Assembly (NCBI GenBank): GCA_016342655.1
Contig: JAEINL010000009.1
Location: 1 to 64,000 of the forward strand
Source: Sphaerochaeta sp.
GTDB lineage: Bacteria; Spirochaetota; Spirochaetia; Sphaerochaetales; Sphaerochaetaceae
Reading direction: 5' to 3'
Length of the DNA: 64,000 nucleotides
The translations under genes were made by a program, and so were the position numbers. The notes beneath the pieces were generated by a model. The model saw only the letters and a program-made list of their open reading frames with translations, made no database searches and was not told the DNA's origin. Shown here piece after piece: positions 41,302-64,000 of this stretch (position 1 is the first letter of the stretch; each line of letters opens with the position of its first letter).

Positions 41302-41461
41302 CCCCAATGAATCGAGAGTAGCACAAGCATTGCCATGGTTCGTGCGCCATTACCGAGCGAGTGCCGGGAAAGCAGGTGAGATATGTGAGCCCCTTGGCTC
41401 GGAAAAGGAGGCAACGCCTCCTCTTTCCAGGGCTTGCCCTGGGGTATTGATACCTTTCATT
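41302..41461 (+). repeat. PalE element, copy 4 (long form)
   Basis: A complete 160-bp copy between TTTGATT at its left and TTCAG at its right. The left target is TTGATT and the right end is TTCATT. It has the long left stem GCACAAGC...GTTCGTGC and the GAGCC/GGCTC middle stem. It lies in a non-coding gap; 41462-41818 shows no recognisable gene. Confidence 0.9.
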
Positions 41462-41818
41462 TTCAGAGATTTCTCTTCTCATCAATCATTTGGATATGTG
41501 CAAAGGTTGCAACTTCCGGAAAGATTGTACAGTTTGTGCAAGATCACTCTCAACATTCTTCTAACCGATAACCTACCCATAGGACAATTTTTGTCCATAC
41601 AAAATATCACCTTCAAATCTTATCACTCCGAGGGTAAGTTATTGGGGCTTTTCGGATGTTTCCAAAATCTAGCATATACCTATAGTATCCCAAAAATGAG
41701 TAGCCCGCCGATTTGAGGGACGTATTGCTACGGCTAACCTTGGCGGGCATTGGTACTGGAAAGTTAGAATGATTGGGCCCTTAAGTCAATTGATACAGTA
41801 CTATCTACGTAGTTAGGT

Positions 41819-41847
41819 TGACTAAAATTAACCTATAAGGTAAATTT
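41819..41847 (+). promoter_or_regulatory. Promoter and likely operator of the HTH-ImmA gene
   Basis: TTGACT 41819-41824 and TAAATT 41842-41847 have a 17-bp spacer. Inside lies TTAACCTATAAGGTAA, an imperfect inverted repeat that an HTH protein could bind for autoregulation. Confidence 0.55.
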
Positions 41848-41952
41848 TATTATGCATAGTTGCTATAAAAGACCTTGTATGTTGAACCAACATTTTCCCA
41901 GCACAATGGTACATGGACAAGGTATTGCTGCTTCAACGCTAAGGAGTACTCC

Positions 41953-42894
41953 ATGAGTGCATTACCAAGTGTCCCAACTGGGAAAGTGATAAAGAACTAC
42001 CTAGATGAATATGGTATTTCACAAAAAGAATTGTCTGCTAGGACCGGCGTCAGTGAAAAGCATCTCTCTCACCTGCTTAACGGCTCGTCTCGATTGACTG
42101 AAGAGCTTGCCCTGAAGCTGGAAAAAGTATTACCTGGAGTACCAGCATCTTACTGGTTGAACTATGAAACAAAGTATAGAGAAGCCTTGGCTAGGGAGAA
42201 GGCTTCCCTGCAAACATTTTCTTCGGATGAATTACAGAACCTCTCCATCCGTTTTAGATTCAAGGAAGTGTTCCAGGGCCTTACTTGGGATTTGCAGAGA
42301 CAAGCAAATGAAATGCTATCACTGTTAAAGATAAGTGACTACGCTAACTTCGAAAAAACCTACTCAAATTTGGTTGTTCCTGATAGAAGCCACCTTGAGT
42401 CAATTGTAATTTGGCTAAACGTATGTCGAGAGACAGCTGAATTGCAGGATGAGGAGATAACAGAATCTTTCGACCCCAAAACCTTTAGAACGTTGCTCCC
42501 TGAATTGAAAGAGATAGCAATGAATGAAGATGCCGCTTTCTCTCTGGCCAATGCAAAGAAGTGGTTGAACAACAAGGGGGTATACCTTGTGATCCAAGAG
42601 GCCATCACCAACTGTAAGGTGCGGGGTGCCTTGACGTACTATAGAAAGAAACCCGCAATATTTTTGAGCCTTCGTTTCAAGACTCATGATCATGCATGGT
42701 TTGCCTTAGCTCATGAAATAGGACATCTCCTGCTTCATCCCAATGGTAAAGAGACTTCCCTGACATTCGAAGATGATATGGCTACCCCTAGCAGTTTGCA
42801 AGAGGAGGAAGCCAATTCCTTGTTTGATGGCCAGCTCCAGCTTGGGCGCCTGATGGAGATGAATGAGGAGATCAGCAAAGTCTCGCTACTCTAA
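41953..42894 (+). CDS. HTH-XRE + ImmA/IrrE metallopeptidase-like protein, C-terminus probably cut
   Basis: A 313-residue protein with an N-terminal XRE helix-turn-helix (YGISQKELSARTGVSEKHLS, about residues 22-41) and a C-terminal ImmA/IrrE domain with the zinc motif HEIGHLLLH near residue 259. AAGGAG precedes ATG 41953. Such proteins act as antitoxins or phage-related repressor proteases. The usual EEEAN-x-F-A tail is replaced by SLFDGQLQ and an early stop, so the end seems truncated. No toxin gene is adjacent. Confidence 0.78.
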   Translation: MSALPSVPTGKVIKNYLDEYGISQKELSARTGVSEKHLSHLLNGSSRLTEELALKLEKVLPGVPASYWLNYETKYREALAREKASLQTFSSDELQNLSIRFRFKEVFQGLTWDLQRQANEMLSLLKISDYANFEKTYSNLVVPDRSHLESIVIWLNVCRETAELQDEEITESFDPKTFRTLLPELKEIAMNEDAAFSLANAKKWLNNKGVYLVIQEAITNCKVRGALTYYRKKPAIFLSLRFKTHDHAWFALAHEIGHLLLHPNGKETSLTFEDDMATPSSLQEEEANSLFDGQLQLGRLMEMNEEISKVSLL

Positions 42895-43059
42895 TAGCAG
42901 CTACGTGCATTGTATGAGATTCGGGACGAGATGGTAATGAGAACGGAATGGGAAAGATGGCTGTGCATGTGTGAGTAGTCGGGCTTCAGGGAGCTCTTGG
43001 CATTTACCTCAAAGAAGAGTATCTGATGGTACAATCTGCCTCCAGTATCTGGCTTTAGA

Positions 43060-44200
43060 TTATGAGGATGGCACTAGGTTATTTATCTGTTCTTCTAGTT
43101 CAGTTAAAATATCGAAGATATCCGATAATGAGATCTTCCTGCCAAATATCATATCTTGCATCTGCCTGTAATCTCGAAGTAAAGCCTTTTTAACTGTTTC
43201 AGGAGGAATTAGCTTTAAAGATCCTGGAACTGCAGTTTCATAATGTGCCCATCCGACGGGATAGAACTTCATTTTAAAATCTACAACGTCCTTTAGTAAA
43301 TCCAGATCTGAAAGTGCTTCCCTCTTGATTTCTGATTGAGCAAGCATCGCCAGATCATAGTAATGTCGAGAATAACGGGAAGGCTGTTGCTTTCCTTCAG
43401 GGCGGTGGGCTTCCTGATGAAGGATAGTAGCCTTCTCCCAAAAGGTCCGTTTCCCTTCTATCGTGCTCACCTTAAATTTTTTCTGAATAAAGATCTGGGG
43501 AAAATGAAGTGCAGCATAGGAAGTTATAGTAAATTCTTTACTCGGCTGCCATGACGCTAAAGGGCCTATTTCCAGACGAACCTCCGGACGAATATATATA
43601 TCGTCAAATGCCTTGGGATACTTAATATTCACGCAATGAGGATCATCCGGATCTATTTCAAGTTGACAAAGCGGAGAATACAGAGCTTCCAATTCAGGCA
43701 AGAGCGTAGATGCGATATAGTCACGGGCGTATTCATTCCCCAACGAAGCGAGAGTAGCGGAAGCATGCTTCCATTACCGAGCGAGTGGCGGGAAAGCAAG
43801 GTGAGATACCCCGCCCCTTGGGGCGGAAAAGGAGGCAACGCCTCCTGGGTCCAGGGCTTGCCCTGGGGTATTGATACCTTTCATTAATCTGTTTATTGAA
43901 CTTATCTTGTTTATTCTTTGATCTATCTTGGTTAGGGTTTTCGCTAGATACCAGATTCCAGTCAAGAATCAAATCGATGTCTTCAGAGAATCTTTCAATT
44001 ACGTTATAGACCTTGGAAAGACTGGTTCCTCCCTTGAACATCAATGTATTCTTAAGACTCTCAGTGTTAAACAATTTTTGCAAAACCCAACAGACCCAGA
44101 AATCCTTTTCAACGATTGCTGAAGTTGTTCCCATTTGAGCAGCTGTCTCTGAAAAGATCTGGATTCTTTCTTCTTGTGATACATGAGCTACATTATCCAT
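43060..44200 (-). pseudogene. abiEii: AbiEii nucleotidyltransferase toxin, split by PalE
   Basis: The 5' part (44200 down to 43886) encodes the nucleotidyltransferase core with FKGGTSLSKVY and SEDIDLILD. The 3' part (43737 down to 43060) continues the protein to its normal end. A 148-bp PalE insertion at 43738-43885 interrupts it. Removing exactly that segment joins FNKQIN to EYARDY in one frame. The start overlaps the end of the AbiEi gene by 8 bp. AbiE systems are type IV toxin-antitoxins that abort phage infection; this toxin is now broken. Confidence 0.88.
43738..43885 (+). repeat. PalE element, copy 5 (148-bp form)
   Basis: Complete copy inside abiEii. Left flank TTCATT, right end TTCATT. 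Stems: GGAAGC/GCTTCC, CCGCCCC/GGGGCGG, GGAGGC/GCCTCC, CCAGGGC/GCCCTGG. Orientation is opposite to the gene. Confidence 0.95.
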
Positions 44201-44807
44201 TCTGCGATCCTTTAAGTATTTCCTTTATTGCCTCATATATCCAAACACTCACCCGTTGAGAATCTCGTAGGATTTTATCAGAAGAAACATTTCCCATAGT
44301 ATCAGATATTTTCTTTATGATATCCGGAGTTATATGCTCCTTACCCAGAGCTTTAAGTGCCTGAACAAGCAACCTGCTTTCACGATATTGTAAGCCAGAC
44401 TCTTTCATAGCCATATGCTTAAATTCCAGAGACTGATTCCCAATTTCATACGTACGGCTAGGCCCGTCAGAAATATACAGATGGCGAGCAGAAACCTGAG
44501 TTGATAGCCCTAAATAATTTAATGCGGTGTTCCCCGAAGGCTGAATACGCCAATTGAATTTCCGGGCATATGCATAAGCTACTTGCTCGATATCAGGACT
44601 AAGATACTGTTGAAGGATCTCACTGTACCGGGGATAGTGATAGATTCCCTGAGAGACTCGACGAATAGTTCCTTTCTTTGACAAGTCAGAAAGAGCTTTA
44701 CGAACCTCTACAGCAGAGAATGGGGGTATAAAATCAATCTTAGAGAAGACCCAACCCATACCTCGGCTATATATCCTAGCAAGTATTTTTTCAGAAACAG
44801 TTTGCAT
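44193..44807 (-). CDS. abiEi: AbiEi-like antitoxin/regulator (DUF6088 type)
   Basis: A 204-residue protein with an N-terminal winged helix (VEVRKALSDLSKKGTIRRVS, about residues 33-52) and an AbiEi-like C-terminal region. It is the cognate antitoxin and autorepressor of the AbiEii gene that follows with an 8-bp overlap. A perfect 14-bp inverted repeat lies 18 bp upstream of its start, matching the known autoregulation of abiE operons. The gene appears intact although its toxin is disrupted. Confidence 0.82.
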   Translation of the reverse strand: MQTVSEKILARIYSRGMGWVFSKIDFIPPFSAVEVRKALSDLSKKGTIRRVSQGIYHYPRYSEILQQYLSPDIEQVAYAYARKFNWRIQPSGNTALNYLGLSTQVSARHLYISDGPSRTYEIGNQSLEFKHMAMKESGLQYRESRLLVQALKALGKEHITPDIIKKISDTMGNVSSDKILRDSQRVSVWIYEAIKEILKGSQNG

Positions 44808-44824
44808 GTATTTATATTAGTATA

Positions 44825-44860
44825 TTTTTTCACAAAAAGATAGGTGTTTTTGTGAAAAAA
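44825..44860. promoter_or_regulatory. Perfect inverted repeat upstream of abiEi, probable operator
   Basis: Arms TTTTTTCACAAAAA (44825-44838) and TTTTTGTGAAAAAA (44847-44860) with an 8-bp spacer. It lies between abiEi and the divergent zeta-like stub, in the right place for AbiEi binding. Confidence 0.65.
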
Positions 44861-44885
44861 TTTACGTAGAATCATATGCTGAATA

Positions 44886-45169
44886 ATGAAAAAACGACTT
44901 CGAAGTTTTGCTGGACCCAATGGCTCCGGCAAAACTTCATTCCCCAACGAAGCGAGAGTAGCACAAGCATTGCCATGGTTCGTGCGCCATTACCGAGCGA
45001 GTGCCGGGAAAGCAAGGTGAGATACGTGAGCCCCTTGGCTCGGAAAAGGAGGCAACGCCTCCTCTTTCCAGGGCTTGCCCTGGGGTATTGATACCTTTCA
45101 TTATACACATACCTTGCTGCTCACGAAAATATTCAAAATACATACCTTTCTGCACATAATCTTATTTGA
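44886..45169 (+). pseudogene. Zeta-toxin-like P-loop stub, split by PalE
   Basis: It begins MKKRLRSFAGPNGSGKTS, the N-terminal Walker A of zeta-toxin/predicted kinase proteins. PalE copy 6 (44942-45102) follows within the next codon. Removing the 161 bp gives a 40-residue frame ending SAHNLI, then a stop. So the gene was already a stub, or had a large deletion, before or after the insertion. A second, uninterrupted version is at 46365-46454. Confidence 0.65.
44942..45102 (+). repeat. PalE element, copy 6 (161-bp long form)
   Basis: Complete long-form copy with left flank TTCATT and right end TTCATT. The homologous empty site at 46411 (AACTTCGTTATACACATACC) shows both junctions directly. Confidence 0.95.
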
Positions 45170-45270
45170 TGGTCATGTGATACCACCTAAAAGCGAGATA
45201 GTGATCAGGGTGGTTTTCTCTTCCGGAATTTCTTGTTTCCTTACGTTTTTGACTGTGTTCACTAGACCTG
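45160..45270 (+). repeat. Duplicated 111-bp block, copy 1
   Basis: From TCTTATTTGATGGTCATGTG to TTCACTAGACCTG. A near-identical block, differing at about a dozen positions, lies at 46520-46630. Each copy follows a zeta-like stub. Confidence 0.7.
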
Positions 45271-45326
45271 GTTGACTCTGTTTCTCTTTGATTGACGCAG
45301 TAGATCGGGATAGGAAAGATTTCTCT

Positions 45327-45860
45327 TCATACCTGTTCCTTCGGTGGGGATTGGTTCCTGATCATACTATCTTTGCTCCAATTGTGTATCACTGGCTGTG
45401 GTATATTGGCCTCAACTTCAAGCAGATACTCCTTATGCACCCTGCGCACCATATCCTCCTTGAGACCTAGGATCTTGGCTGTAGTGCGAATGTTGGCATT
45501 CGGGGCATCCATCATGGTGCAGATCTTACTGGCTAGGTCGAGGGTGACATGCCTTGCCTTGAACTGGAAGGGGACACTTTCTGTGAACATCAGACCACAG
45601 GACGGGCACAGTCCCTTACGCTTGGCGACATGCCAGTAGGTTCTCCTGTAAGGGGGGATGGGCTCGGCGCTCAGAGCTTTCTTGCCAGGACGATAGCCGT
45701 GGTTTCCGGCAACAGAGCCGCACTCTGGGCAAACAAGCTCCTCAGTGCAAGAAAAATAGAGGTGGATATCCTTCCCTAATATTTTCTGAGAAGTAAGTCT
45801 GAAGGGTTTACAGGGCAGGTGAATACTGATATTTTGATCCTGCAGCTCAATAGGTTGCAT
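45327..45860 (-). pseudogene. ISL3-family transposase, N-terminal part only
   Basis: A 177-residue minus-strand frame starting at ATG 45860 with AAGGAGAC upstream. It contains the ISL3 zinc-ribbon (CPECGSVAGNHGYR and CPSCGLMF) and the following helix-turn-helix-like region, then ends without the DDE catalytic domain. Full ISL3 transposases have about 400 or more residues. Part of its tail sequence recurs in a relic near 49600-49690. It is not functional. Confidence 0.75.
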
Positions 45861-46139
45861 GGCTGTCTCCTTGTTTATTGCTAGTACAACAAACATACCA
45901 GAGACTGCCTTTTATATTCTATGCACTTTGAAAAATAATGAAATTATCTACTTGACCACCAAGAATGCGGAAGAACCGAAGATCGGAAGGAACGTTCAGA
46001 AAGGATTGTACTCGGCTGTGATCTATGGCCCAGAGGCCTCCCTATGGGGATTTCTTTGTACTTGATACCTGGCTTTTCTCCCCTGCTGGTTTCTTTAATC
46101 TGGAAACAGGATATTGTATCATGTATGGAGGAATACTAC

Positions 46140-46361
46140 ATGGCACGAAAAATTATCCGTGAGGACACTGCAACAAAAAAGGAACGACAAGAGCTGTTTT
46201 CACAAGCCGGATCCCGCGCTGTGAATGCTGCACGTGCGGCTTCCTTACCGTTGACCTATGTTGAAGGGACCACGATTGTCCGTGAAGTAGATGGCACGAA
46301 AACCGTAATAGGAAAAGTCAGCCCGAACATAACCGTCCTTCAAAAGAAAATTAGGCTTTAA
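46140..46361 (+). CDS. Small protein upstream of zeta-like stub, possible antitoxin
   Basis: A 73-residue basic protein starting MARKIIREDTATKKERQELF, containing a central VEGTTIVREVDGTKTVIGKV segment. GGAGGAATACTAC precedes the ATG. Three bases after its stop begins a zeta-toxin-like stub, the order seen in small-protein/zeta-type toxin pairs. I infer an orphaned antitoxin or accessory protein. Coding is supported by the start signal and the tight spacing. Confidence 0.6.
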   Translation: MARKIIREDTATKKERQELFSQAGSRAVNAARAASLPLTYVEGTTIVREVDGTKTVIGKVSPNITVLQKKIRL

Positions 46362-46364
46362 AAA

Positions 46365-46454
46365 ATGAAAAAGCGACTTCGGATTTTTGCTAGACCCAAT
46401 GGCTCCGGCAAAACTTCGTTATACACATACCTTTCTGGTCATAATCTTATTTGA
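46365..46454 (+). pseudogene. Zeta-toxin-like P-loop stub, uninterrupted
   Basis: 29 residues, MKKRLRIFARPNGSGKTSLY to GHNLI and a stop. It matches the stub at 44886-45169 but has no PalE, so it serves as an empty-site comparison. The P-loop has Arg for the usual Gly (FARPNGSGKT). The rest of the toxin is missing. Confidence 0.6.
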
Positions 46455-46519
46455 TGAGTAAATGTCATTCTCTAATGTCGTAGAAATAATTCATTATAAT
46501 GCAATATCTTGCTAAAATA

Positions 46520-46630
46520 TTCTTATTTGATGGTCATGTGATACCACCTAAAAACGAGATAGTGCACAGGCCGTTTTCTCTTCCGGAATTTCTTGCTTTC
46601 TTACGTTTTTGACTGCGTTCACTAGACCTG
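46520..46630 (+). repeat. Duplicated 111-bp block, copy 2
   Basis: Counterpart of 45160-45270. It starts TCTTATTTGATGGTCATGTG and ends at CACTAGACCTG. Function unknown. Confidence 0.7.
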
Positions 46631-46673
46631 TTTAATCAAGGAGGGGATAGCTGATATGGCCCAAAAACTTCAT

Positions 46674-46708
46674 TTGACTGTTTGAAGAATCACGAGTATA
46701 ATACTCGT
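46674..46708 (+). promoter_or_regulatory. Consensus promoter with -10 box inside a palindrome
   Basis: TTGACT 46674-46679 and TATAAT 46697-46702 are 17 bp apart. The -10 box lies within the perfect palindrome ACGAGTATAATACTCGT (46692-46708), so a dimeric regulator bound there would block it. The DUF234 ATPase start is at 46740. Confidence 0.7.
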
Positions 46709-46739
46709 AAGTATAATAATTGTGATTCTGGAGGTTGCC

Positions 46740-48155
46740 ATGTTCATTGGAAGAGAGAAAGAGATGGAATTGCTGGAAGAGCTGCATTCCTCGAACAAGT
46801 TTGAGTACCTTGTTTTATATGGCAGAAGACGTGTTGGGAAGACTTCTCTTCTGATGGAGTTTTCCAAAGCCCATCCGGTAATTTTCTATTCCGCTCAGGC
46901 AAAGAATGATAGTCTGAACCTCTCTGATTTTTCCAAAGCTCTTCAGATGCATTTCTCTGGCTCATTCTTTGGTGCCTTCTCGGATTGGAATGCGGCTCTC
47001 AACTATCTTACAAGTCAGGTGTCTGATAAAAGAATAACCTTGATCATCGATGAATTCCCTTTCATAGCAGAGGAAAACCAGACTATCAAATCTATCATTC
47101 AGCATGTGATTGATCATGATTGGAAAGAGAAGAGTCTTTTCTTAATTTTGTGTGGATCCAGTGTGAGCTTTATGGAGACTGAGGTTATGGGGGCAAAAAG
47201 CCCTCTGTACGGACGCTCCACCAGCAACTTGGAGCTGGTTGGCTTTGACTACTTGCAAAGTGCTTCCTTTTTTCCCCTGTATACCAACGAGGAAAAATTG
47301 CTGAGTTATGGGATCCTTGGAGGGAGCCCCTGTTACCTTGCGGCTTTCAGTGACACGGCAACCATTGAGCAAAACATTTCAAGGGGCATCCTCCGGATGG
47401 GTTCATTCCTTAAGGATGAAACACAAAACCTCCTGAAGATGGAGCTTCGCGAACCTGCAGTCTACAACAGTATCTTCGAAGCCATTGCAACAGGTTCGAG
47501 TCGTCTCAATGATATCGCACAGAAGATCCACGAGGAACAGACCAAGTGTTCCAAGTACATCCTGACCCTGAAGAATATGAAACTTGTCGATAAGGTAACC
47601 CCCTCGGGGGAGAAGGATTCCAGCAGAAAGACCCTCTACCAGATTACAGACAATTTCTTCCTGTTCTGGTATCACTTCATCTTTGTAAACAAGAGCTATT
47701 ATGAGCTGCTTGGAGACAAAGAAGCAGCTCAGGAGATATATGAGAATCTTTCTGAATATATGGGGCAGGTCTTCGAAAAGATATGCACTCAATATCTGGT
47801 CAGGCTTGCCAAGGGAAAAAGACTTCCTTTTGTACCTCACACTATGGGAAGATGGTGGGGTAGCAATCCGAACACTAGAAAAGAGGACGATATTGATATC
47901 CTTGCCCTTGATGCACATCAGCGGTCAGCTATCTTCTGTGAATGCAAATACCGAAACAGGCTGTTTGGCATGGATGAGTACCAGGACTTTCTCAACGCTA
48001 CTGCAATTTTCACCAAGCCGGTCAATCGCTTTTATTACCTTTTCAGCAAATCGGGGTTCACTGAAGCGGTGAGAAATCAAGCCCAAAATGATGGGGTTAA
48101 GCTTGTGGGACTGGATGATCTTTTCCTCTTTGATTCCCCAACGAAGCGAGAGTAG
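46740..48155 (+). CDS. AAA ATPase_2 + DUF234 protein, 3' end altered by PalE
   Basis: A 471-residue protein with an N-terminal ATPase_2 domain (Walker A YGRRRVGKTSLL near residue 27; Walker B ITLIIDEFPF near 97) and a C-terminal DUF234 domain with a nuclease-like DDIDILALD...AIFCECKYR. GGAGG precedes ATG 46740. The last residues SPTKRE come from the inserted PalE copy; without it the protein would end FLFD followed by TGA. Function of this family is unsettled. It is probably still expressed. Confidence 0.82.
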   Translation: MFIGREKEMELLEELHSSNKFEYLVLYGRRRVGKTSLLMEFSKAHPVIFYSAQAKNDSLNLSDFSKALQMHFSGSFFGAFSDWNAALNYLTSQVSDKRITLIIDEFPFIAEENQTIKSIIQHVIDHDWKEKSLFLILCGSSVSFMETEVMGAKSPLYGRSTSNLELVGFDYLQSASFFPLYTNEEKLLSYGILGGSPCYLAAFSDTATIEQNISRGILRMGSFLKDETQNLLKMELREPAVYNSIFEAIATGSSRLNDIAQKIHEEQTKCSKYILTLKNMKLVDKVTPSGEKDSSRKTLYQITDNFFLFWYHFIFVNKSYYELLGDKEAAQEIYENLSEYMGQVFEKICTQYLVRLAKGKRLPFVPHTMGRWWGSNPNTRKEDDIDILALDAHQRSAIFCECKYRNRLFGMDEYQDFLNATAIFTKPVNRFYYLFSKSGFTEAVRNQAQNDGVKLVGLDDLFLFDSPTKRE

Positions 48156-48283
48156 CGGAAGCATGCTTCCATTACCGAGCGAGTGCCGGGAAAGCAAGGT
48201 GAGATACCCCGCCCCTTGGGGCGGAAAAGGAGGCAACGCCTCCTGGGTCCAGGGCTTGCCCTGGGGTATTGATACCTTTCATT
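48136..48283 (+). repeat. PalE element, copy 7 (148-bp form)
   Basis: Complete copy at the stop codon of the DUF234 ATPase gene. Left flank TTTGATT, right end TTTCATT. The G at left and C at right shows that the right TTCATT belongs to the element. Confidence 0.95.
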
Positions 48284-48429
48284 GATGCCTTTTGTGATTT
48301 GGTATTGGAGTAGAGAAAAAAATCCAGTGGTCCTAGTTCGGATTTGACTGGCACCCTCCTAGGATTTCTGCTAAGATTTTTTAGTATGCAAGAGCCTCAA
48401 GGGATGCATAGTAATGCTGGAGGTAGTCC

Positions 48430-49333
48430 GTGAAAAGATCAAATGTACCATTGCAAGACGACATGCGTCTTACAACATTGCTTGGGCTGATAGGTATCCC
48501 TACCATACTGACAACCACAGCATATGTGCTAGTGGGGCAGCTACAAATAGGAATTCCTTCAATCTTGCTATTCTTCCTTCTGACAACGGTCATTCTATTC
48601 CCCCTAGAGTTGGCCGTAGTGCTCTTTGCAAGTAAAAGAAGCTATGGAAGCTTTTCTTTGAAAAGTGCATTCGCCAATCATAAGAAAATGAGTTGGCCGA
48701 AGTTACTTCTCTTTGGCGTAGTGCTGTTTGGGTTTGCAGGTCTTATGTCTGCTGTGATAACTCCGATCGAAAGGATGTTGACAGAACCCCTTGCCAGTAG
48801 GTTGTTTCAGAGTATTCCTGTCTATTTTGATTCCCCAACGAAGCGAGAGTAGCGGAAGCATGCTTCCATTACCGAGCGAGTGGCGGGAAAGCAAGGTGAG
48901 ATACCCCGCCCCTTGGGGCGGAAAAGGAGGCAACGCCTCCTGGGTCCAGGGCTTGCCCTGGGGTATTGATACCTTTCATTGGAACAATATGGAGTACCTC
49001 AGACAATATCCACAGAATATCCTGCTGATAACCTGTATTGCCTTTGTTGCGCTCAACGTCATCATTGGGCCGATTATTGAGGAGTTGTTTTTCCGGGGAT
49101 ACCTTACCTCGAGGATCAGTCGGTTTGGGAAATGGGCTCCTGTCATTGTAACGGTGCTGTTTTCCCTCTATCATCTTTGGCTTCCGTTCAATAATGTGTT
49201 TCGAATTGTCATCTTCCTTCCTGCCGCATATGTGACTTGGAAAGAGAGGAATATTTACATATCAATTGTGTTTCATTGTCTGTGCAATTTGTTTTCAACG
49301 ATCAGCTTCATTATCGCCCTCTATGCTGTCTGA
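48430..49333 (+). pseudogene. CPBP family membrane protease, split by PalE
   Basis: It starts at GTG 48430 with GGAGG upstream. The first part has three hydrophobic segments. The second part (from 48981) carries the CPBP/Abi motif EELFFRGYL and a later FSLYHL. A 148-bp PalE at 48833-48980 separates them. Removing it joins SIPVYFD to WNNMEYL in frame. CPBP proteins are CAAX-protease-like membrane enzymes, some of them tied to bacteriocin immunity. The gene is now broken. Confidence 0.82.
48833..48980 (+). repeat. PalE element, copy 8 (148-bp form)
   Basis: Complete copy inside the CPBP gene. Left flank TTTGATT, right end TTTCATT. Nearly identical to copies 5 and 7. Confidence 0.95.
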
Positions 49334-49487
49334 AAAAGCCAATACTTCCCGGTCAAAACGATTGCGATTCAACTTCAGGCTGAGCAATCCAGTATGGAGT
49401 GGCGTGCTTTCTCTTTAGTGGGTTCCCACTCCCCCTAAAGACCAAGTGTTTCAAATCTGTAGTGCAGTATCTATCTGGTATCTTCGG

Positions 49488-49605
49488 TGCGTGCTCATGC
49501 CGTCAAAAGCTTCTGAGTACCGGCAATTCTTCAACGTTGTTGCAATCTTCACCAAGCCGGGCAACCGCTTCTATGTATTTATTCAGAAGATCGGGATAGG
49601 CAAGA
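49488..49605 (+). pseudogene. C-terminal relic of a DUF234-type ATPase
   Basis: The frame reads YRQFFNVVAIFTKPGNRFYV, close to YQDFLNATAIFTKPVNRFYY in the intact gene at 46740-48155. It has no start and is followed by sequence matching the tail of the ISL3 fragment at 45300-45400. The stretch 49334-49487 holds nothing recognisable. Confidence 0.55.
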
Positions 49606-49707
49606 TCCCTCTTCGTTCCTTTTCCTTTGGTAGGGACTGGTTTTTGATCATACTATCTTTGTTGAGACTCCAATTGTGTATTTCAGGCAGTGTTTGCATG
49701 ATACTTG

Positions 49708-50961
49708 CTATCGGGTATCCAGCCTGAATGCTGATTCCATCTGCATACATGCTGATGAAGAGAGACCATACTTCTTTGCAGTCTGCTTCCACTGGCAGAC
49801 ACTATCTGATACCTCTTCCAATATGGCTGCAGCTTCTGTATTGCTGAGATGGAAAAAGGGGGCTTGCTTCAGGGCAAGGGAAAAGTCCAAGGAATGGTCA
49901 ACTTCATCAATGGCAAGGCTCAGCCCGTAGCTGTTTGGCGATGGATTCAAGTCGTAGGCAGGGGAGAGCTTCCATCCTTTTCTTGTGAGAAGGAAACCGT
50001 GGTTTCTCAGATGGTCGTCAGTATTGGATATGGCTATGCTGAAGGCAATTCTTCTCCATAGCTGATGAAGGTCCTTATCAGGTTGTGCACTTGCTGTGGT
50101 GATGAACTCTGCCAGTTCCAGATAGCTTGATGAATGGTCCCCGTCCTGTTTGCCAAGTAGGGCCATTGCGGAGGCAAAGTGTATCCGTCCGGTTGTCTTG
50201 GTACGGTCAAAACGTCGTACAATGAATGTGCCACCCTGTGAAGAGAATGATTGTAGCATTGCAGGGGGAACTTCAACGCCTGCATTGGATGCAAGCTCAT
50301 GGACTACCATCTCCCATGCACCACTGTCATTGGTGTCATTCCTCGAGGGAAATTTAGCGATCCACAGATTCCCTTGTTCGTCGGCTACTGTAGCCTTTGG
50401 TCTGGCTCCTCCTAAGGAAGAGCCGGGATCGACAAGGCGTGCGATCCATCGAGCCTCTTCATCAGAATCAGGATTGCCTTCAAGTTGGGAAACTCCATAT
50501 TCCAAATCCCGCAATCGCGTCCAGGGGGGTGTTGCAAAAGGAGAGTCTTCTGCAATGAAAGGTCCCCCTTGGTCTAGCTTGAAACGAAGGGCACCCATCC
50601 TGGCAATGTCCTGGACACCAAGAAGGTAGTCGCTTTCAGTTAGGGGTCTATACTTTGTGGCATTTGACCTAGCAAAAATTGCTTGGCGTCTTTGCATTAG
50701 CTTTCTCCCCCATCGGTCAGGGGTGGAGTCAAGGAAAAGGCCGAAGTTGCTTTTTGAAGGGTTTGGGTACTGTCTGCCTGCAAACAGTTGCAACTCAGGA
50801 TCAAGCTGATAGCTGTTTGCCTTGGACGATAGCCAGCTTGCATCATAAGAAAAAGAGAAAATCTCGCCAGATCTTCCTTTTTGGGCAAAAAGGGATCCTA
50901 CCAGCTGTGGCTTTGCCATTCCTTCCCAGTGCGCATACACAAAAATGATGTTCTCTTTCAT
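49708..50961 (-). CDS. hipA: HipA-like serine/threonine kinase toxin
   Basis: A 417-residue HipA-family kinase. The P-loop-like DPGSSLGGARPKATV is near residue 178, the catalytic SNTDDHLRNHGFLL near 312, and the metal-binding LSPAYDLNP near 330. All key motifs are present, so it is probably active. HipA kinases phosphorylate translation components such as glutamyl-tRNA synthetase and cause dormancy. It overlaps the upstream antitoxin gene by 4 bp (ATGA). Confidence 0.9.
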   Translation of the reverse strand: MKENIIFVYAHWEGMAKPQLVGSLFAQKGRSGEIFSFSYDASWLSSKANSYQLDPELQLFAGRQYPNPSKSNFGLFLDSTPDRWGRKLMQRRQAIFARSNATKYRPLTESDYLLGVQDIARMGALRFKLDQGGPFIAEDSPFATPPWTRLRDLEYGVSQLEGNPDSDEEARWIARLVDPGSSLGGARPKATVADEQGNLWIAKFPSRNDTNDSGAWEMVVHELASNAGVEVPPAMLQSFSSQGGTFIVRRFDRTKTTGRIHFASAMALLGKQDGDHSSSYLELAEFITTASAQPDKDLHQLWRRIAFSIAISNTDDHLRNHGFLLTRKGWKLSPAYDLNPSPNSYGLSLAIDEVDHSLDFSLALKQAPFFHLSNTEAAAILEEVSDSVCQWKQTAKKYGLSSSACMQMESAFRLDTR

Positions 50962-51275
50962 GCTTCCCCCTTCGGGGCCCTTTTCCCTACCGGAAGGTCC
51001 AAGTCTTGGAGCTTTCTTCCCAATACATCATCTTTGGCAACCAAGAGCAGATCATCTACCAATCCAATGGCAAGCAATACCTGGGCATATGCACCCATGG
51101 AGACAGAAGGAGACCCTTTCTCAATTGCCCAGAGGGTGGAACGGCTGATGTTTGCCCTTTCTGCTACCAGCTGTACTGAAATGCGTCTTCTGAGCCTTGC
51201 TAGTTTGATCTGCTCTCCCATTTGCTCAAGTCTTCGTTCGACTGAGGGGAGTAAGGTAAGTTTCTTTTGTGCCAT
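50958..51275 (-). CDS. hipB: HipB-like antitoxin, XRE helix-turn-helix
   Basis: A protein of about 105 residues with an XRE HTH (RISVQLVAERANISRSTLWA, about residues 30-49). It neutralises and co-represses with HipA. The start is uncertain: ATG 51275 or an in-frame ATG at 51284 are both plausible and neither has a strong ribosome site; a longer frame upstream looks non-coding. Two GATTATTGAA direct repeats just upstream are candidate binding sites. Confidence 0.82.
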   Translation of the reverse strand: MAQKKLTLLPSVERRLEQMGEQIKLARLRRRISVQLVAERANISRSTLWAIEKGSPSVSMGAYAQVLLAIGLVDDLLLVAKDDVLGRKLQDLDLPVGKRAPKGEA

Positions 51276-51295
51276 AATGTTCATAGTATAAGACT

Positions 51296-51323
51296 GATTA
51301 TTGAATATGTCTAGATTATTGAA
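51296..51323. promoter_or_regulatory. Direct repeats upstream of hipBA
   Basis: GATTATTGAA occurs at 51296-51305 and 51314-51323, an 18-bp period, just upstream of hipB on the minus strand. Probable operator for HipB. Confidence 0.5.
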
Positions 51324-51482
51324 CATTAAGAAGAAGAAATCATGTATAGGAAGTGAAAGAATAAAGATACTTGGTAGCAAAATGAAGCAGTCGAGCCAAC
51401 GTTTTGCCGTATCGAAGATAGGGCGTTGGCCCAAGGGTATTTTATATCAATCTGAACACATCATCTTCATTTTTTTCTTGAG

Positions 51483-52122
51483 TTATAGCACTGCTTTTGT
51501 CCGTAGCATACAGCTATAGATACTGATACATTCGACTGTGAAATGGTCACATATATTGGGGATTTTGATTTTTGAAGTGCTCTCTGGGTTTATTATTCGA
51601 CTTTCCATGCTCACGACAACCAGATTATTGGCCATTGCAGAAGCTATCACCCAAGGGTCGACTCCACTGAGAAATACTCGAACCATCTCATCCCTATAGT
51701 ACGAACTCACATGTGAGCCAATTCTAGAAAACGCTGTTTGTTCTCTGTTTTCAGGATCCAGAAAGTACCGTTCCCGTTTTTCTATCCAGTCAGAAAGTGG
51801 ACCCTCTTTCGTTTGTAATTCCTCATACACCATATGCCCACAAATGAGCAATCCATTATACAATAGGTGGTCTATCCAATCCCAAAAGCCAGGTGCTATG
51901 GCAAATTGGTACTCGAAGTTCTTCGCTCTGATGAACACATTCGAATGAAAGGTATCAACACCCCAGGGCAAGCCCTGGAAAGAGGAGGCGTTGCCTCCTT
52001 TACCGAGCCAAGGGGCGGGGTATCTCACCTTGCTTTCCCGGCACTCGCTCGGTAATGGAACCATGGTAACGCTTCCGCTACTCTCGCTTCGTTGGGGAAT
52101 CAAAGCAGTACCGCTTAGCCAT
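51483..52122 (-). pseudogene. DUF4411 PIN-like toxin, split by PalE near its first codons
   Basis: The original ATG is at 52122-52120 and reads MAKRYCFD. PalE copy 9 (51944-52097) follows inside the next codon. Past it the frame resumes as SNVFIRAKNF with the DUF4411 signature PGFWDWIDHLL and GHMVYEELQTKEGPL. Excision restores CFDSNVFI, the first conserved aspartate region of this PIN-like family. The ATG overlaps the stop of the upstream ImmA-like gene. A new start inside the element could give a hybrid protein, but it would lack the native N-terminus. Confidence 0.82.
51944..52097 (-). repeat. PalE element, copy 9 (154-bp hybrid form)
   Basis: Complete copy in reverse orientation, same direction as the interrupted gene. 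Left flank (minus strand) TTTGATT, right end TTTCATT. Its left stem is GGAA...TTCC with a longer loop, and its middle stem is mixed. Confidence 0.93.
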
Positions 52123-52480
52123 CAAGCTTCACCCTTCAATAAGGTTGCGATGGTTTTTGCAGAGACTTTCAGTAGCGATTGTGCCTCACGATGGAGTGTA
52201 TCGCCTGTACGGACACTCTCTACCAGTGTTTCCAAAAGTCTTGGGTTTGTACGCTTACAGAATACTTTTTGGCCTTGTTTCTGATGCTAGGAAGTGTATT
52301 GCATCCTGCAAAGTCATCAATGCTGGAGGACGGAAGCAGGAACTCTACTGCTGTGCGGTTGAAAGCAGTTCTGTTCCTGACAGTGGGGAGTCAACACCAG
52401 ATTCTCCCAAGAGGATATGTGTTAGCTCATGCACTAGGGTAAAGATCTGAGCAACTTCAGCATCCTTGGAATGGCTTTTA
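52122..52480 (-). pseudogene. ImmA/IrrE-type antitoxin of the DUF4411 pair, frameshifted
   Basis: Minus-strand sequence near 52460-52400 encodes FTLVHELTHILLGESGV, with the HExxH motif of ImmA/IrrE metallopeptidases. Stops and frame changes follow. The C-terminal tail TLHREAQSLLKVSAKTIATL is intact again up to the TGA that overlaps the toxin ATG. This matches the usual ImmA-DUF4411 operon order. The N-terminus is missing. Confidence 0.65.
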
Positions 52481-52539
52481 GAAGTCGGATATATCGTGGC
52501 GGTATCAGCAAGACCATAAGAGGATATGGTTTTACTACA

Positions 52540-56812: not shown

Positions 56813-56826
56813 GAGGACATACACAT

Positions 56827-60550: not shown

Positions 60551-60795
60551 ATCACTAACCTTTTGTTTTCTTGTATCCATGCTACCCAATTACTTGTACA
60601 CCCTACTGGGAGCAAGGTCAATTATAATGGTACCTTCTATGATTCCTATCAAGTTCCATCTCGTAAGATTTCAAACATACCCAATTCATTCTGAAAGAAC
60701 AAGTTGGGATTATCCTGGAAGGTCTCGATGCTCTTGAAAGAACGACTGGTCTTGTTGTAGGTACTCGCACCAATGAACAGAGATTGCGTGGATGA

Positions 60796-60894
60796 CGCCC
60801 AAGACAGAAAAACCTCCCTAAGGAGGCAACATATATAGAAGACTTTCAAGAAAGTCGAGATTGAACGGAAACGGGCTAGTGCCCTCATTCCTAG
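60796..60894 (+). repeat. Repeat R2, copy D, left half
   Basis: It has the leading hairpin and the first part of the R2 frame up to GCCCTCATTCCTAG, where the IS4-family element is inserted. The right half resumes at 62454. Confidence 0.75.
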
Positions 60895-62453
60895 CTCAAA
60901 CTTCGCACTTGTATCATGAGCTTTTTTTCAGTTGATTTTTCATTAAATCCGGTAGATTATCAATGAACAATTCGGCCATTTCATATAGCTTTTCCTGGAG
61001 ATGGGGTTCGGTCTGGCAAATCTTGTCGATGAACATGTAGAGCATCAGCTCAAGGGCATTTTCAAAAGCAGCATCCTTCATTTCCTCAACCATCGATAGG
61101 AATAGTTCCCCTATGCTCCTTTCATCAGTGCTGATCCTGCGCATGTATGAAAGCATCATGTATTGGGTGAAAACCAATGAGATATGTGCAGTAATCTCAT
61201 CATAATTCAGGGATTGGTTGCCTGTTTCAAGGTTAAGTTGAGACTTACAGTTTTTGAAAAAAACTTCGATTGACCACCTATTCCCATATATAGCAACGAT
61301 CTCCATTTCATCAAGAGAGATATCTGTCGATATGAGGACCAAGAAATCCTTGGGTTTGGAACGGTTTCGGACAAAGACAAGCTTTATCTTTTTCTCATTG
61401 TCATCCTCATCCTTGATGGTTACGATCCTGGACAACAAGAATTTTGCCTTACCTCGTCTCTTCTTCGAAGAATTGAAAATCTGGGTAAAGGTCTTCTTTG
61501 TACCATCCTCACAGGTGTACTTGATGCGACCTTTCTTGGCCATGCAGATAACATCAAACCCCTTTCCCAGGACAGAGAATATCTGAGCAGGCGAGGAAAA
61601 CCAGCTGTCGAACAGCACATACTTTGCCTTGATCCCCGCCTTTATGGCGTAATCGATGAGATTGAGCATGGTAAGCGTTGCCTTAGTCTGTGCCATGAGC
61701 CTTCTATTATAGCCAGGAGTTCCGAAAGGTACCTCGGAGGCTTCATTTATCCGCTGTTTGGTATTCTCTGTGCTCAATGCACACTGGGCAACTGGAAGAA
61801 AGGATTTCCCGTCTGTATACCCGAGGGTAAGCATACGGAACCCTCTGAAATACAGTTGTTTGGCATGGTCATAGCAGCAGGCAAGCAACTCAATCTTCTT
61901 GGCCCGATCCCGTCTGAAGGAACTGTCGTCCAAAACAAGACAACTCCGGTTGGGGATGGTGGACTTCTCCTGTATCGGATCAATTTCGGTCCGGATGATA
62001 ACAGCAGCAAGCAATGAGGTGAACTTGTTCCAGTCGATCTTTGGGGATTGGAGAAAACGGTGAACACAATCCTTCCCTATCTTGTCGGGATTGCTGCTTC
62101 TCTGGTCCTGATTTATCGAGATATTCTTGAAGGCAATGGAATAAATGTAGGCGAAAACTCTCGATACCGGGACACCCCTGAGTTTCCTTGCCCCACACTT
62201 GGATAAAATGGTGAAGATGCTGAATTTCTTGGCAAAACTGCCGAAAGAAGTGGAAAGTATGTCGTCATGGGACTGAAAATCTGTTAGCATGGTGGTGTAA
62301 GCTCCTTTTTGTTGTTGTTTTCTCGTAAAAACATTATACAACATATTGGAGCTTATTTCTATACTAAACAAGCAAATAGAGTAAAATATTTGTATTATTT
62401 TAATATAGTTTCGATACTGGTGAATTCATGATATTCCAAGTGCGAAGTTTGAG
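60895..62453 (-). mobile_element. IS4-family insertion sequence, complete
   Basis: A 1559-bp element bounded by 17-bp perfect inverted repeats, CTCAAACTTCGCACTTG and CAAGTGCGAAGTTTGAG. The 7-bp target TTCCTAG is duplicated at 60888-60894 and 62454-62460. The intact target is seen in R2 copy A (CATTCCTAGGTATG). One transposase gene lies on the minus strand. The short duplication fits the ISPepr1-like end of the IS4 family range. Confidence 0.9.
60914..62290 (-). CDS. IS4-family DDE transposase
   Basis: A 458-residue transposase. The DDE residues are the first Asp in RSCLVLDDSSFRRD, the second in KYVLFDSWFSSPAQIF, and the Glu within the IS4 signature YGNRWSIEVFFKNCKSQL (Y-x2-R-x3-E-x6-K). AAGGAG precedes ATG 62290; a longer frame from 62371 has no site. 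All motifs are intact, so the element may be active. A transposase of this type does not explain PalE, which has no matching ends or duplications. Confidence 0.9.
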   Translation of the reverse strand: MLTDFQSHDDILSTSFGSFAKKFSIFTILSKCGARKLRGVPVSRVFAYIYSIAFKNISINQDQRSSNPDKIGKDCVHRFLQSPKIDWNKFTSLLAAVIIRTEIDPIQEKSTIPNRSCLVLDDSSFRRDRAKKIELLACCYDHAKQLYFRGFRMLTLGYTDGKSFLPVAQCALSTENTKQRINEASEVPFGTPGYNRRLMAQTKATLTMLNLIDYAIKAGIKAKYVLFDSWFSSPAQIFSVLGKGFDVICMAKKGRIKYTCEDGTKKTFTQIFNSSKKRRGKAKFLLSRIVTIKDEDDNEKKIKLVFVRNRSKPKDFLVLISTDISLDEMEIVAIYGNRWSIEVFFKNCKSQLNLETGNQSLNYDEITAHISLVFTQYMMLSYMRRISTDERSIGELFLSMVEEMKDAAFENALELMLYMFIDKICQTEPHLQEKLYEMAELFIDNLPDLMKNQLKKSS

Positions 62454-62708
62454 TTCCTAGGTATGTGTTCTGGATGGAAGCCTTGTACCCATAGATTCGG
62501 GAGAAACGACAAGGTCTGTTCCTGTTTCCCAGGTCCGGTACAAAGGTCCTGTCTTTCAGAACCATTCCCAAACAAACCCTTGGAAGGAAGAGGCTTTTTG
62601 GAGGCAGCGTTCCTTCCGCTTTTTGGTTTGTTGCGTTGATTTAACCCCAAATACATGAAGAAAGTATGCATGAGATATGAAATAAGCATGAATTGTTGCT
62701 GACCATGT
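62454..62708 (+). repeat. Repeat R2, copy D, right half
   Basis: It continues from TTCCTAGGTATGTG to GAATTGTTGCTGACCAT. Relative to copies A and B the 77-codon frame has an in-frame stop (CCCATAG) and a frameshift, so this copy is degraded. Confidence 0.7.
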
Positions 62709-62756
62709 ATTTCTTACCATATCTACACTGCCTAAAGCCCTCCTATATCCCTCTTG

Positions 62757-63080
62757 GTGAAGCACTCTTACAGATGTAAGGGTCTTTACTCTGCTTGGGG
62801 ATGGCGAGTTGCAGGAAGGTATCGTATGGGAAGCCTCAAGGACAAGTTTACAGCCTTTAGGTGTGGGGTTATTGAGCTTTCTGATGGCAATGATATCGAG
62901 CAGGTGGTGGAGGCTTTGGGCAGAACGCCTGTTGCCGGGAAGCCTACCTGTATCCTTGCACATACGCTTAAGGGTAAAGGTGTTTCTTTTATTGAGAATC
63001 AGGTCGGCTGGCATGGAAGGGTGCCAAACGATGAAGAACTTGACCTGGCGCTTGCAGAGTTGCAGGAGAAGAAGATATGA
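62757..63080 (+). pseudogene. Transketolase N-terminal subunit, truncated with internal deletion
   Basis: The first piece reads [20 protein letters not shown], the thiamine-diphosphate binding motif of transketolase. It then jumps with a frame change to [20 protein letters not shown] and runs to the normal subunit end AELQEKKI. The middle, including the usual NxxxLQ segment, is deleted. The N-terminal ~100 residues are also missing, replaced by R2 DNA. It is followed directly by the C-terminal subunit. Confidence 0.75.
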
Positions 63081-64000
63081 GCGAAATGAAGATGACCCTG
63101 TGGGCTATGGTGAGGCCTTGGTTGAGCTGGGGGATACGAACAAGGACGTAGTTGTTCTTGATGCCGACTTGTCCCATGCAACTATGACCTGTTACTTTGC
63201 AGACAAATACCCCAAGAGATTTTTCAATGTCGGGGTGGCTGAAACTAATCTCATTGATATTTCTGCTGGGATGTCTACCATGGGATATATCCCGTTTTGC
63301 AGCACCTTTGCCCTGTTTGGAACAGGTAGGGCCTATGAGCAGATTAGAAACAGTGTTGTCTACCCTGGTTTCAATGTGAAGATCTGTTGTACTCATGCTG
63401 GTCTTACTGTAGGAGAAGATGGTGGAAGTCACCAGGCTATCGAGGACATTGCGTTGATGCGTGTTATTCCTGGGATGACAATTGTTGTTCCTTGTGATGC
63501 CAATGAAAGGTATCAATACCCCAGGGCAAGCCCTGGACCCAGGAGGCGTTGCCTCCTTTTCCGCCCCAAGGGGCGGGGTATCTCACCTTGCTTTCCCGCC
63601 ACTCGCTCGGTAATGGAAGCATGCTTCCGCTACTCTCGCTTCGTTGGGGAATGAAGCAAAGAAAGCTGTTTTTTCCCTAGCGGAAACTGAAGGTCCGGCT
63701 TACCTGCGTTTGGCACGTTCGCCCAGTACCGTTTTTGAAGAGTCCATGCCGTTTGAGTTGGGTAAGGCCAATGTGCTGAGAGAGGGGAATGACTTGGTCA
63801 TATTCGCTTGCGGTATCATGGTCGATACTGCCCTTTCTTGTGCAAAGCAGCTACAAGACGAGCTGAAATCTTCTGTTGCTGTGATTAATGTGCATACCAT
63901 CAAACCCATCGATAGGGAGTGTGTGCTTTCCTATGCGACGCTATCGCTGATGTCCTTATAGGAAACGGCGACTTCAAATTCAAGAAGATAGGTATACAGG
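63077..64000 (+). pseudogene. Transketolase C-terminal subunit, multiply broken, runs off the window
   Basis: It starts ATG 63077 (MSEMKMT), overlapping the previous stop. A one-base deletion near 63096 shifts the frame to [20 protein letters not shown]. PalE copy 10 at 63502-63649 interrupts it; excision restores [14 protein letters not shown]. Near 63940 another deletion removes the EEH region, because DAIADVLIGNGDFKFKKIGI follows in a different frame. Three lesions mean it is not functional. Confidence 0.82.
63502..63649 (-). repeat. PalE element, copy 10 (148-bp form)
   Basis: Complete copy in reverse orientation inside the transketolase pseudogene. Left flank on the minus strand is CTTCATT, right end TTTCATT. 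The same four stems as copies 5, 7 and 8. Confidence 0.95.

Follow-up and report, generated by a model that had tools for sequence, protein, structure and literature searches.

The window, a 64,000-nucleotide stretch of the draft genome of Sphaerochaeta sp. GCA_016342655.1 (161 contigs, estimated contamination 5.94%), carries seven complete copies of a short element, PalE, together with truncated copies and a lone right end (Table 1). All seven start with CCCCAA and end with CCTTTCATT, and their positions, lengths and left words are as an earlier sequence-only reading had reported. That reading also held that removal of PalE restores the reading frame of four genes; two of them, an AbiEii-like gene and a transketolase gene, were checked without joining the pieces. 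The pieces of the AbiEii-like gene that flank the copy at 43738 match a single PADLOC model at positions 3-97 and 97-303, and match Pfam with a gap, at positions 2-54 and 82-225; the two domains of the transketolase sit on opposite sides of the copy at 63502. The open reading frame of a DUF234 ATPase gene (46722-48155) terminates within the copy at 48136. A gene was seen in none of the PalE copies.

Table 1. PalE copies, parts of the reference copy and paralogous empty sites in the window, numbered from its first base.
Feature	Position	Strand	Remarks
Empty site CTCATT/CCTAGG	21623..21624	+	Paralogous to occupied L264 (C93:66578)
Second empty site for L264	32308/32309		Less similar
PalE, 5'-truncated	32555..32672	+	
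PalE, 5'-truncated	34341..34406	+	Right half only
PalE right end only	37717..37735	+	
PalE copy, 160 bp	41302..41461	+	Target TTGATT 41296-41301
PalE copy, 148 bp	43738..43885	+	Target TTCATT 43732-43737; splits AbiEii-like gene
PalE copy, 161 bp	44942..45102	+	Target TTCATT 44936-44941
Empty site TTTATT/GCTAGT	45879..45880	+	Paralogous to occupied L008 (C45:17572)
PalE copy, 148 bp	48136..48283	+	Target TTGATT 48130-48135
PalE copy, 148 bp	48833..48980	+	Target TTGATT 48827-48832; reference copy
Left domain, reference copy	48833..48887	+	CCC/GGG closing stem, internal loop, hairpin
Right domain, reference copy	48893..48975	+	Stems AAGGT/ACCTT and ATACCCC/GGGGTAT bearing three hairpins
Right-domain hairpins, reference copy	48907-48920, 48926-48940, 48946-48961	+	
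Right cleavage word TTCATT (predicted), reference copy	48975..48980	+	Element-borne
PalE copy, 154 bp	51944..52097	-	Target TTGATT 52098-52103
PalE copy, 148 bp	63502..63649	-	Target TTCATT 63650-63655; within transketolase gene

Across the source genome, this gene-less element of about 150 bp occupies roughly a hundred sites. A pattern made from its 5' end gave 129 matches (61 + 68) at up to two mismatches, the positions of 100 of which were listed, and the same pattern read backwards, which served as the control, gave 0 + 1. Nine copies are identical to one another and 53 pairs are identical; the median identity of same-length pairs is 95% here and 97% in the related genome G003.

Insertion occurs at a defined word. 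In the source genome, 104 distinct left ends were read (up to four mismatches), many of them retrieved with a pattern that itself contains ATT. Their flanking positions -1, -2 and -3 are T, T and A in every case; T occupies position -5 in 102 and position -6 in 81. Loci retrieved by similarity to PalE alone had the same left word in every row listed. Because all four bases are found at position -4 (C 46, G 33, T 23, A 2), the target word is best written TTNATT, present at 81 of the 104 ends. The narrower word TTSATT, which had been expected always to precede CCCCAA, is found at only 60 of them.

The right end, by comparison of 90 copies in the source genome, is TTCATT in 89. When the scan was not anchored on this word, TTTCATT closed 82 of 84 copies in all genomes then in the set; among distant members TTCATT or TTTATT terminates 21 of 28 rows, and in G302 and G303 TTCATT terminates 10 of 13. 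The left and right words are unequal in 55 of the 90 copies, and there is thus no target duplication, in agreement with the earlier claim that the right TTCATT belongs to the element. Sequence to the right of the insertions is near background. In G302, a head-to-tail array consists of three full copies and a partial one, an arrangement to be expected if a right end may act as a target in its turn. By eye, the motif AAYGAA lies close to the left end, and alignment columns 71 and 169, taken as a pair (GC 21, GU 3, AU 2), are suggestive, but only suggestive, of a guide pairing.

Paralogous empty sites were found for three occupied sites of the source genome (L008, L060 and L264), each with a gap of 0, which fits precise insertion and the precise excision that the earlier reading implied. 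The empty counterpart of L060 is one site on contig C72, covered by the overlapping loci L022 and L029, and its left match spans 51 bp only.

Comparison of the aligned copies supports the predicted two-domain, multi-hairpin fold of PalE as a conserved structure. Double-sided changes occur in 27 of its 39 pairs, and the covariation score is 0.318 versus 0.063-0.114 for slid controls. RNAalifold, applied to the alignment alone, gave 30 pairs, with the middle hairpin missing.

The copies are also strongly oriented. In the source genome 32 of 35 lie on the G-rich strand (34 of 37 in a laxer scan), as do 24 of the 25 for which |skew| exceeds 0.03, against backgrounds of 69% (ORF bases) and 50% (TTSATT words); this test covered the window plus 20 stretches, each of 20 kb, that had been picked for known PalE copies. 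Contigs with at least two copies show uniform orientation in 22 of 27 cases, compared with 0 of 100,000 shuffles. The G-rich strand is presumed from GC skew to be the lagging-strand template, and a preference for that template is seen in the source genome. Two relatives show a weak trend only, with 13 of 17 in G003, which is not above the ORF-strand background, and 8 of 10 in G029.

Word-specific insertion without duplication, the TTCATT right end, the empty sites and the orientation of the copies lead us to a single-strand transposition reading, and they bear out the IS200/IS605 or RAYT-type transposition suggested earlier. We propose, with a probability of roughly 0.8, that PalE, about 150 bp long, is a non-autonomous element whose mobile form is folded single-stranded DNA and whose movement follows HUH Y1 chemistry of the IS200/IS605/RAYT kind. 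The top strand of PalE would be exposed on the lagging-strand template, where a Y1 enzyme would bind its two domains in their folded form. Cleavage of this strand would then follow, after TTNATT at the left and after TTCATT at the right, and a single-stranded PalE circle would form. This circle would integrate into exposed single-stranded DNA, 3' of another TTNATT. The enzyme is expected to be supplied in trans, encoded elsewhere in the genome.

The PalE family is present in eight families of the class. Its exact 21-base right end has no match in viral contigs and, among the matches listed in genome contigs (at least 67 stretches), occurs only in Sphaerochaeta or Spirochaet- records. Rfam gave no match to the PalE elements in window positions 41000-52500; the single weak match in that interval, to abiF (27.8 bits, cut-off 37), lies outside them.

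A search for a Y1 TnpA gene flanked by PalE ends, which would identify an autonomous IS200/IS605 member, was negative at the Y1 loci examined. Among 31 such loci none is bounded by PalE ends, only chance-level single ends being present; one complete copy is close to L121 but does not surround it. Additional Y1 loci, scanned with the covariance model, are likewise not bounded by these ends, and complete copies lie near L039 and L222 only. No parent transposon was seen around elements with one PalE end, including five left ends of the source genome that lack a right end within the sequence available there (L040, L047, L233, L239 and L249); at L050 the right end is cut off by the end of the contig. 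In five relatives, the matches to the left end alone represent a single shortened copy, at the same site in all; those to the right end alone in G037 are either lone ends or members of the family that are longer or truncated. The IS605-type remnants of the source genome were considered as a parent and rejected, because the tnpA-side ends that were inspected are unlike PalE. Since no Y1 locus examined is bounded by PalE ends, the cognate enzyme is one that we can only infer, and in a draft of 161 contigs a transposase could be hidden in an assembly gap.

The statement that no intact cognate transposase is present holds for the window as far as it was examined; elsewhere, at C13:15250-16056, the source genome has an intact RAYT-like gene. 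The RAYT protein L033 scores 43.2 bits against Pfam Y1_Tnp (cut-off 23), and its best NCBIfam family is REP_Tyr_transpos, at 61.2 bits and thus below the 80-bit cut-off. In the PDB, the family of L033 matches TnpArep alone (4er8, E 0.0023). Residues H60, H62 and Y119, the presumed HUH motif and presumed catalytic tyrosine, are invariant in 8 of 8 proteins. The RAYTs of PalE-containing genomes are long, with a weak C-terminal helix-turn-helix match (E 0.03), and dN/dS is 0.05-0.12 in four pairs. In 14 genomes from four genera and two families, the RAYT gene directly follows dprA, a gene for the handling of single-stranded DNA. No dprA match was found upstream of RAYT at G029:C19, G303:C86, G085 and G143, each with more than 1 kb available, and the upstream sequence is too short for this check in G020, G025, G029:C15 and G302. 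The RAYTs of G029 and G302 belong to a distant lineage (33% identity), without an observed dprA link. PalE adjoins RAYT in G303; its distance from the RAYT frames is 361 bp in G085, and in G141 the two are about 2 kb apart. The remaining RAYT loci that were scanned showed no PalE beside the gene.

The distributions of PalE and RAYT largely coincide within the family. With a 150-bit RAYT cut that was chosen after the scores were known, RAYT is present in 13 of 15 PalE-positive and 4 of 124 PalE-negative genomes among 139 (both 13, PalE only 2, RAYT only 4, neither 120; Fisher 4e-13, kinship ignored). At the search's own threshold of E 1e-10, the counts are 13 of 15 and 6 of 124, with G031 and G033 added as RAYT-positive genomes without PalE. 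Outside the genus and within the family, 4 genomes have both, 1 has PalE only, none has RAYT only and 108 have neither (8e-7, kinship ignored). At the level of the class, PalE-positive genomes show no enrichment of a broad RAYT match (6 of 19, against 30 of 179 others, p 0.12), while under the strict, post hoc 150-bit cut all 3 genomes that exceed it have PalE (p 0.0008). When the count is limited to 14 large and nearly complete genomes from the genus, 8 have both, none PalE only, 3 RAYT only and 3 neither (p 0.055); RAYT-free genomes tend toward smaller size or lower completeness. G295 was scored as PalE-positive from one weak match (E 1.2e-7). Shared descent could account for much of this co-occurrence.

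Based on these observations, our best candidate for the PalE enzyme, named tentatively and at somewhat under even odds, is a RAYT with a C-terminal extension, mostly encoded directly after dprA. With rather more reserve, we propose that PalE may be the natural trans substrate of this C-terminally extended RAYT, which the host would keep under purifying selection and which is most often found directly behind dprA.

It is less likely, and on balance we consider it unlikely, that the same single-strand mechanism is driven in trans by an IS200-type TnpA of the L031/L121 group, as has been proposed for classical palindrome-associated elements. The IS200-type genes L031 (source genome) and L121 (G003), with apparent right ends ...GGCTTCATT and ...AAATTCATT, seem to terminate in TTCATT as PalE does; a hairpin adjoining these genes resembles, by eye, the first right-domain hairpin of PalE; and both genomes contain PalE copies that are highly alike within each genome. 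The likeness stops at this word and this one hairpin motif, however, as PalE ends were found at no IS200 gene examined. In addition, the source-genome gene is broken by a stop, the copy-rich genomes G056 and G085 have, by eye, other IS200-type genes, and the presence of IS200-type genes is not significantly associated with PalE in the genus (5 of 8 versus 5 of 18, p 0.19).

A mover other than a Y1 enzyme, so far unrecognised and acting on folded single strands, seems to us quite improbable. It would accommodate the 11 of 17 further PalE-positive genomes that have no Y1_Tnp match (E 1e-4), including the nearly complete G128, G105 and G153; a lax RAYT search of these 11 gave a RAYT of another kind in G123 and one chance-level match. 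It would also accommodate G021, which is 82% complete and has at least 21 PalE matches and no RAYT match. Both observations count against our best candidate enzyme as well. Yet in several of the Y1-free genomes the PalE copies, among the rows read, are few or divergent-looking and could be relics, whereas the source genome and G003, with very similar copies, both have RAYT. We regard as very improbable a dispersed functional RNA or DNA structure, such as a regulator or terminator, spread by recombination: deep conservation of a fold with compensatory changes is also expected of RNA, but PalE inserts precisely and at a fixed word, has empty sites and identical copies, enters genes and shows strand bias, all of which speak against it. 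An equally remote reading, as a MITE of a DDE transposon or an IS91/Helitron-type rolling-circle element, shares with PalE a fixed target word and the lack of coding capacity found in some such elements, but PalE has no target duplication, no terminal inverted repeats by inspection of its ends, and a conserved word that sits to its left and recurs at its right end.

How RAYT-associated repeats are disseminated is described in PMC8266576 as still being worked out. PalE is directional and has sharp ends, empty sites, identical copies, a target that is defined and, in Sphaerochaeta, a single leading candidate enzyme, and it makes this question directly testable. If our proposal of a RAYT mover is correct, an orphan RAYT subclass gains its element, and a domesticated transposase in a recombination operon is still spreading an element of about 150 bases after TTNATT. 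With PalE, its bacterial class gains a mobile element of several hairpins that is deeply conserved. The full-text literature searched listed nothing of this kind for the class or for Sphaerochaeta, although such an element may still have been published.

IS608- and ISDra2-type elements insert 3' of a short word, and their right end has its own cleavage word. PalE likewise inserts 3' of a fixed word without target duplication, has a cleavage word in its right end and carries folded structures close to either end. Subterminal hairpins and use of the lagging-strand template are described for IS200/IS605 elements (IS608, ISDra2) in PMC6006769 and PMC8266576; PalE differs in that it lacks tnpA, its folded domains abut the cleavage sites and its left target has one free base. 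Stem loops of IS605 in Borrelia plasmids are the subject of PMC2775950. The PATEs of Haloquadratum are related to IS605-type transposons, and some derive from them by deletion of the core (as outlined in PMC3119063). PalE resembles these PATEs, as they are characterized there, in its lack of terminal inverted repeats, near-terminal palindromes, absence of target duplication, non-coding, transposase-less size and high number, but a parent with the same ends was not found at the Y1 loci examined, and the multi-hairpin fold of PalE is conserved across many families of one class.

Palindromes of 20-40 bp tagged with CGTC are known from Spirochaetes, as mentioned in PMC3733652. With REPs and REPINs, in the outlines given by PMC6006769, PMC3733652 and PMC8266576, PalE has in common that it is folded, high-copy and accompanied by a RAYT gene retained in the genome. 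Unlike these inverted, mainly intergenic pairs flanking RAYT, it is about 150 bp long and directional, enters some genes and mostly does not flank RAYT; the GTAG/GTRG foot of REPs is likewise largely missing, with GTAG in 3 of 26 PalE sequences, all from the source genome, and GTGG in one. The closest counterpart to the candidate enzyme is TnpA-REP subclass 2.1, for which the pertinent section of PMC6006769 describes a C-terminal helix-turn-helix, no REP-like repeat near the genes and, for some members, flanking TIRs. The RAYTs of PalE genomes are similarly long, with a weak C-terminal helix-turn-helix and no PalE beside most of their loci. They would belong to this subclass by that description alone, and PalE would then be the partner on which they act in trans.

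PalE, a gene-less multi-hairpin element of about 150 bp, behaves as an IS200/IS605-type single-strand element, in agreement with the IS200/IS605 or RAYT-type transposition put forward in the sequence-only reading. Its insertion is demonstrated by its sites, and the single-strand chemistry that we infer is well supported. Independent searches with the left flank and the right flank of every copy, run on all DNA analysed, found paralogous empty sites for three copies, in which the flanks adjoin with zero bases lost or gained, consistent with precise insertion. The empty place for locus L060 is a single one, covered by two loci that overlap, and its left match is 51 bp long; at a further L060 copy a gap of 53 separates the flanks, which is not a clean empty site.

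In the own genome, the six bases directly left of PalE were compared for 104 distinct copies: they read NTNATT in 102, TTNATT in 81 and TTSATT (TTCATT or TTGATT) in 60, so the TTSATT proposed from the window gives way to the looser TTNATT. The last six bases of PalE are TTCATT in all but one of 90 own-genome right ends (the exception is TTCATC), and the sequence beyond is near background composition (82 copies, several genomes). Because the left and right words are unlike in 55 of 90 copies, target duplication is excluded as the origin of the right TTCATT, as had been argued from fewer copies. Distant members have ATT directly at the left in 25/28 rows and TTCATT or TTTATT at the end in 21/28, and rows from genomes G302 and G303 follow the same left rule in 12/13 and the same right rule in 10/13, the exceptions including weak or truncated matches. 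In an array of three full copies and one partial copy in G302, each right end is followed at once by the start of the next copy, which is expected if the right-end word is usable as a target; this head-to-tail arrangement was seen in 0 of 104 own-genome copies.

RNAalifold predicts a two-domain fold from 15 members. When it is carried over to another alignment, made of 26 members of which 20 were new, the fold pairs 90.0% of cells, with double-sided changes in 27 of 39 pairs and a covariation score of 0.318 (slid controls 0.063-0.114, shuffles 0.134). From the 26-member alignment alone, RNAalifold returns 30 pairs and misses the middle hairpin, whose main helix has 79% of cells paired there. 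The closing stem of the left domain, at PalE's first bases, differs by genome (CCC/GGG, CTC/GAG, GCC/GGC, TCC/GGA, CGC/GCG and others). The right domain is a stem of AAGGT..ATACCCC with GGGGTAT..ACCTT, and in most members its loop holds as many as three hairpins; in L157, L158 and L159, short members that come from a single family, the left domain is retained and the right one is a simple hairpin. The covariation supports a conserved fold and fits the DNA or RNA level alike.

The top strand of PalE is the locally G-rich strand in 32 of 35 own-genome copies (the window plus 20 chosen stretches), a bias above the ORF background (p 0.003), the G-rich strand bearing 69% of ORF bases; TTSATT words are balanced between strands (273 and 271). 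In a test free of skew, 27 contigs had more than one copy and 22 of these were uniform in orientation, and neighbouring copies share orientation 40 to 7 (both among 100 of 129 matches listed). Agreement with the G-rich strand is weak in relatives (G003 13/17, G029 8/10). Its share of ORF bases suggests that the G-rich strand has the sense of the leading strand, which would make it the template for the lagging strand; IS608 and ISDra2 are described as using the lagging-strand template (PMC6006769).

We propose a RAYT (REP-associated tyrosine transposase) as PalE's enzyme, an assignment open to testing. RAYT matches above 150 bits occur in 17 of 139 genomes of the family, and 13 of these 17 fall among the 15 PalE genomes (Fisher 4e-13). 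At this threshold within the family, PalE occurs without RAYT in G021 and G060, and RAYT without PalE in G005, G016, G020 and G024. In genus g36, two RAYT genomes have at least 21 PalE matches each and a RAYT-free genome a single degenerate match. For IS200-type genes, the association with PalE in the own genus is not significant (p 0.19). Counting against the RAYT assignment, 17 additional genomes with PalE include 11 in which the model detected no Y1 (HUH single-tyrosine transposase) gene, RAYTs in the broad sense show no enrichment with PalE across the class, and only a distant RAYT lineage was found in G029 and G302.

At E 0.01, nine matches to Y1_Tnp turn up in the own genome: an IS200-type gene interrupted by a stop codon, fragments that adjoin tnpB genes of IS605 type, and a single RAYT-like gene, which is intact. 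The latter scores best as a REP-associated tyrosine transposase, at 61 bits under a curated cut-off of 80, and TnpArep is its family's only match among solved structures. Four RAYT pairs give dN/dS values between 0.05 and 0.12, with dS saturated in one. A dprA match lies directly upstream of RAYT in 14 genomes from four genera and two families: G000 (the own genome), G001, G003, G005, G010, G012, G014, G016, G017, G019 and G024 in the own genus, G295 and G303 in two other genera of the family, and G037 in another family. PalE is present in 11 of the 14 and absent from G005, G016 and G024. The upstream protein in the own genome matches Pfam DNA_processg_A, further loci with the pair are L398, L401, L128 and L416-L419, and no dprA was found upstream in four more distant RAYT loci with more than 1 kb of upstream sequence. 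Two genomes carry the last 70 or so codons of the RAYT gene twice, with 3 to 5 kb between the gene and the downstream repeat, a layout that would result from entry of a mobile element at the 3' end of the gene; in the own-genome stretch, some ORFs match the Pfam families Recombinase and its zinc ribbon. Other Y1 sequences beside PalE, or in a PalE-positive genome, are listed in the table.

Features associated with PalE, RAYT and the window
Feature	Location	Remark
Defence-rich stretch	window 39960-52103	BrxC/BrxD-like ATPase; HTH-peptidase gene (PD-Lambda-2 B-like); AbiEi/AbiEii-like pair, with AbiEii interrupted by PalE; DUF234 ATPase (PDC-S27-like); HipA-like gene; DUF4411 gene
Weak abiF RNA match	window 41703-41747 (-)	Rfam, 27.8 bits, cut-off 37
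DDE-type transposase gene	window 60914-62371 (-)	no PalE link seen
PalE array, 3 full and 1 partial copies head to tail	L413 (G302:C92:16200-17200), 305-882 (-)	
Intact RAYT-like gene, own genome	C13	269 codons
dprA and RAYT-like Y1 gene pair	L396 (G000:C13:14500-20500), 97-747 and 751-1560	RAYT-like gene downstream
Duplicated RAYT 3' end stretches	G000:C13:16056-19256; G005:C1:344315-349289	
Complete PalE copy adjoining Y1 gene remnant	L039 (G000:C44:50545-50783)	17.6 bits, below cut-off
PalE member 361 bp from short RAYT gene of another kind	L222/L200 (G085:C184:27568-29258)	near contig end
PalE member ~2 kb from short RAYT gene of another kind	L201 (G141:C136)	
Divergent Y1 protein in PalE-positive genome	L266 (G123:C20)	209 aa ORF; split core; other RAYT kind

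The seven complete copies of the window have exactly the places and form first described, and three more are truncated. A similarity search scored 40 copies in the own genome, and a search by 5'-end pattern gave 129 matches. The dense seven-copy stretch includes AbiE, BREX-like and HipA-like genes; its excess (seven copies in 22 kb, 0.74 expected from the genome mean) is no fair test because the stretch was itself picked in the sequence-only reading. The covariance model detects PalE in 19 of 198 genomes sampled from the class, which belong to eight families; within the own family the count is 15 of 139, in four of 22 genera. One shortened copy at the same site in five Sphaerochaeta relatives (L097-L101 and L090/L091) is an old insertion inherited by descent.

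By definition, PalE falls outside the REP and REPIN elements: it was examined for a GTAG foot and for an inverted, RAYT-flanking arrangement, and neither is characteristic of it. It matches the description of a PATE (palindrome-associated transposable element).
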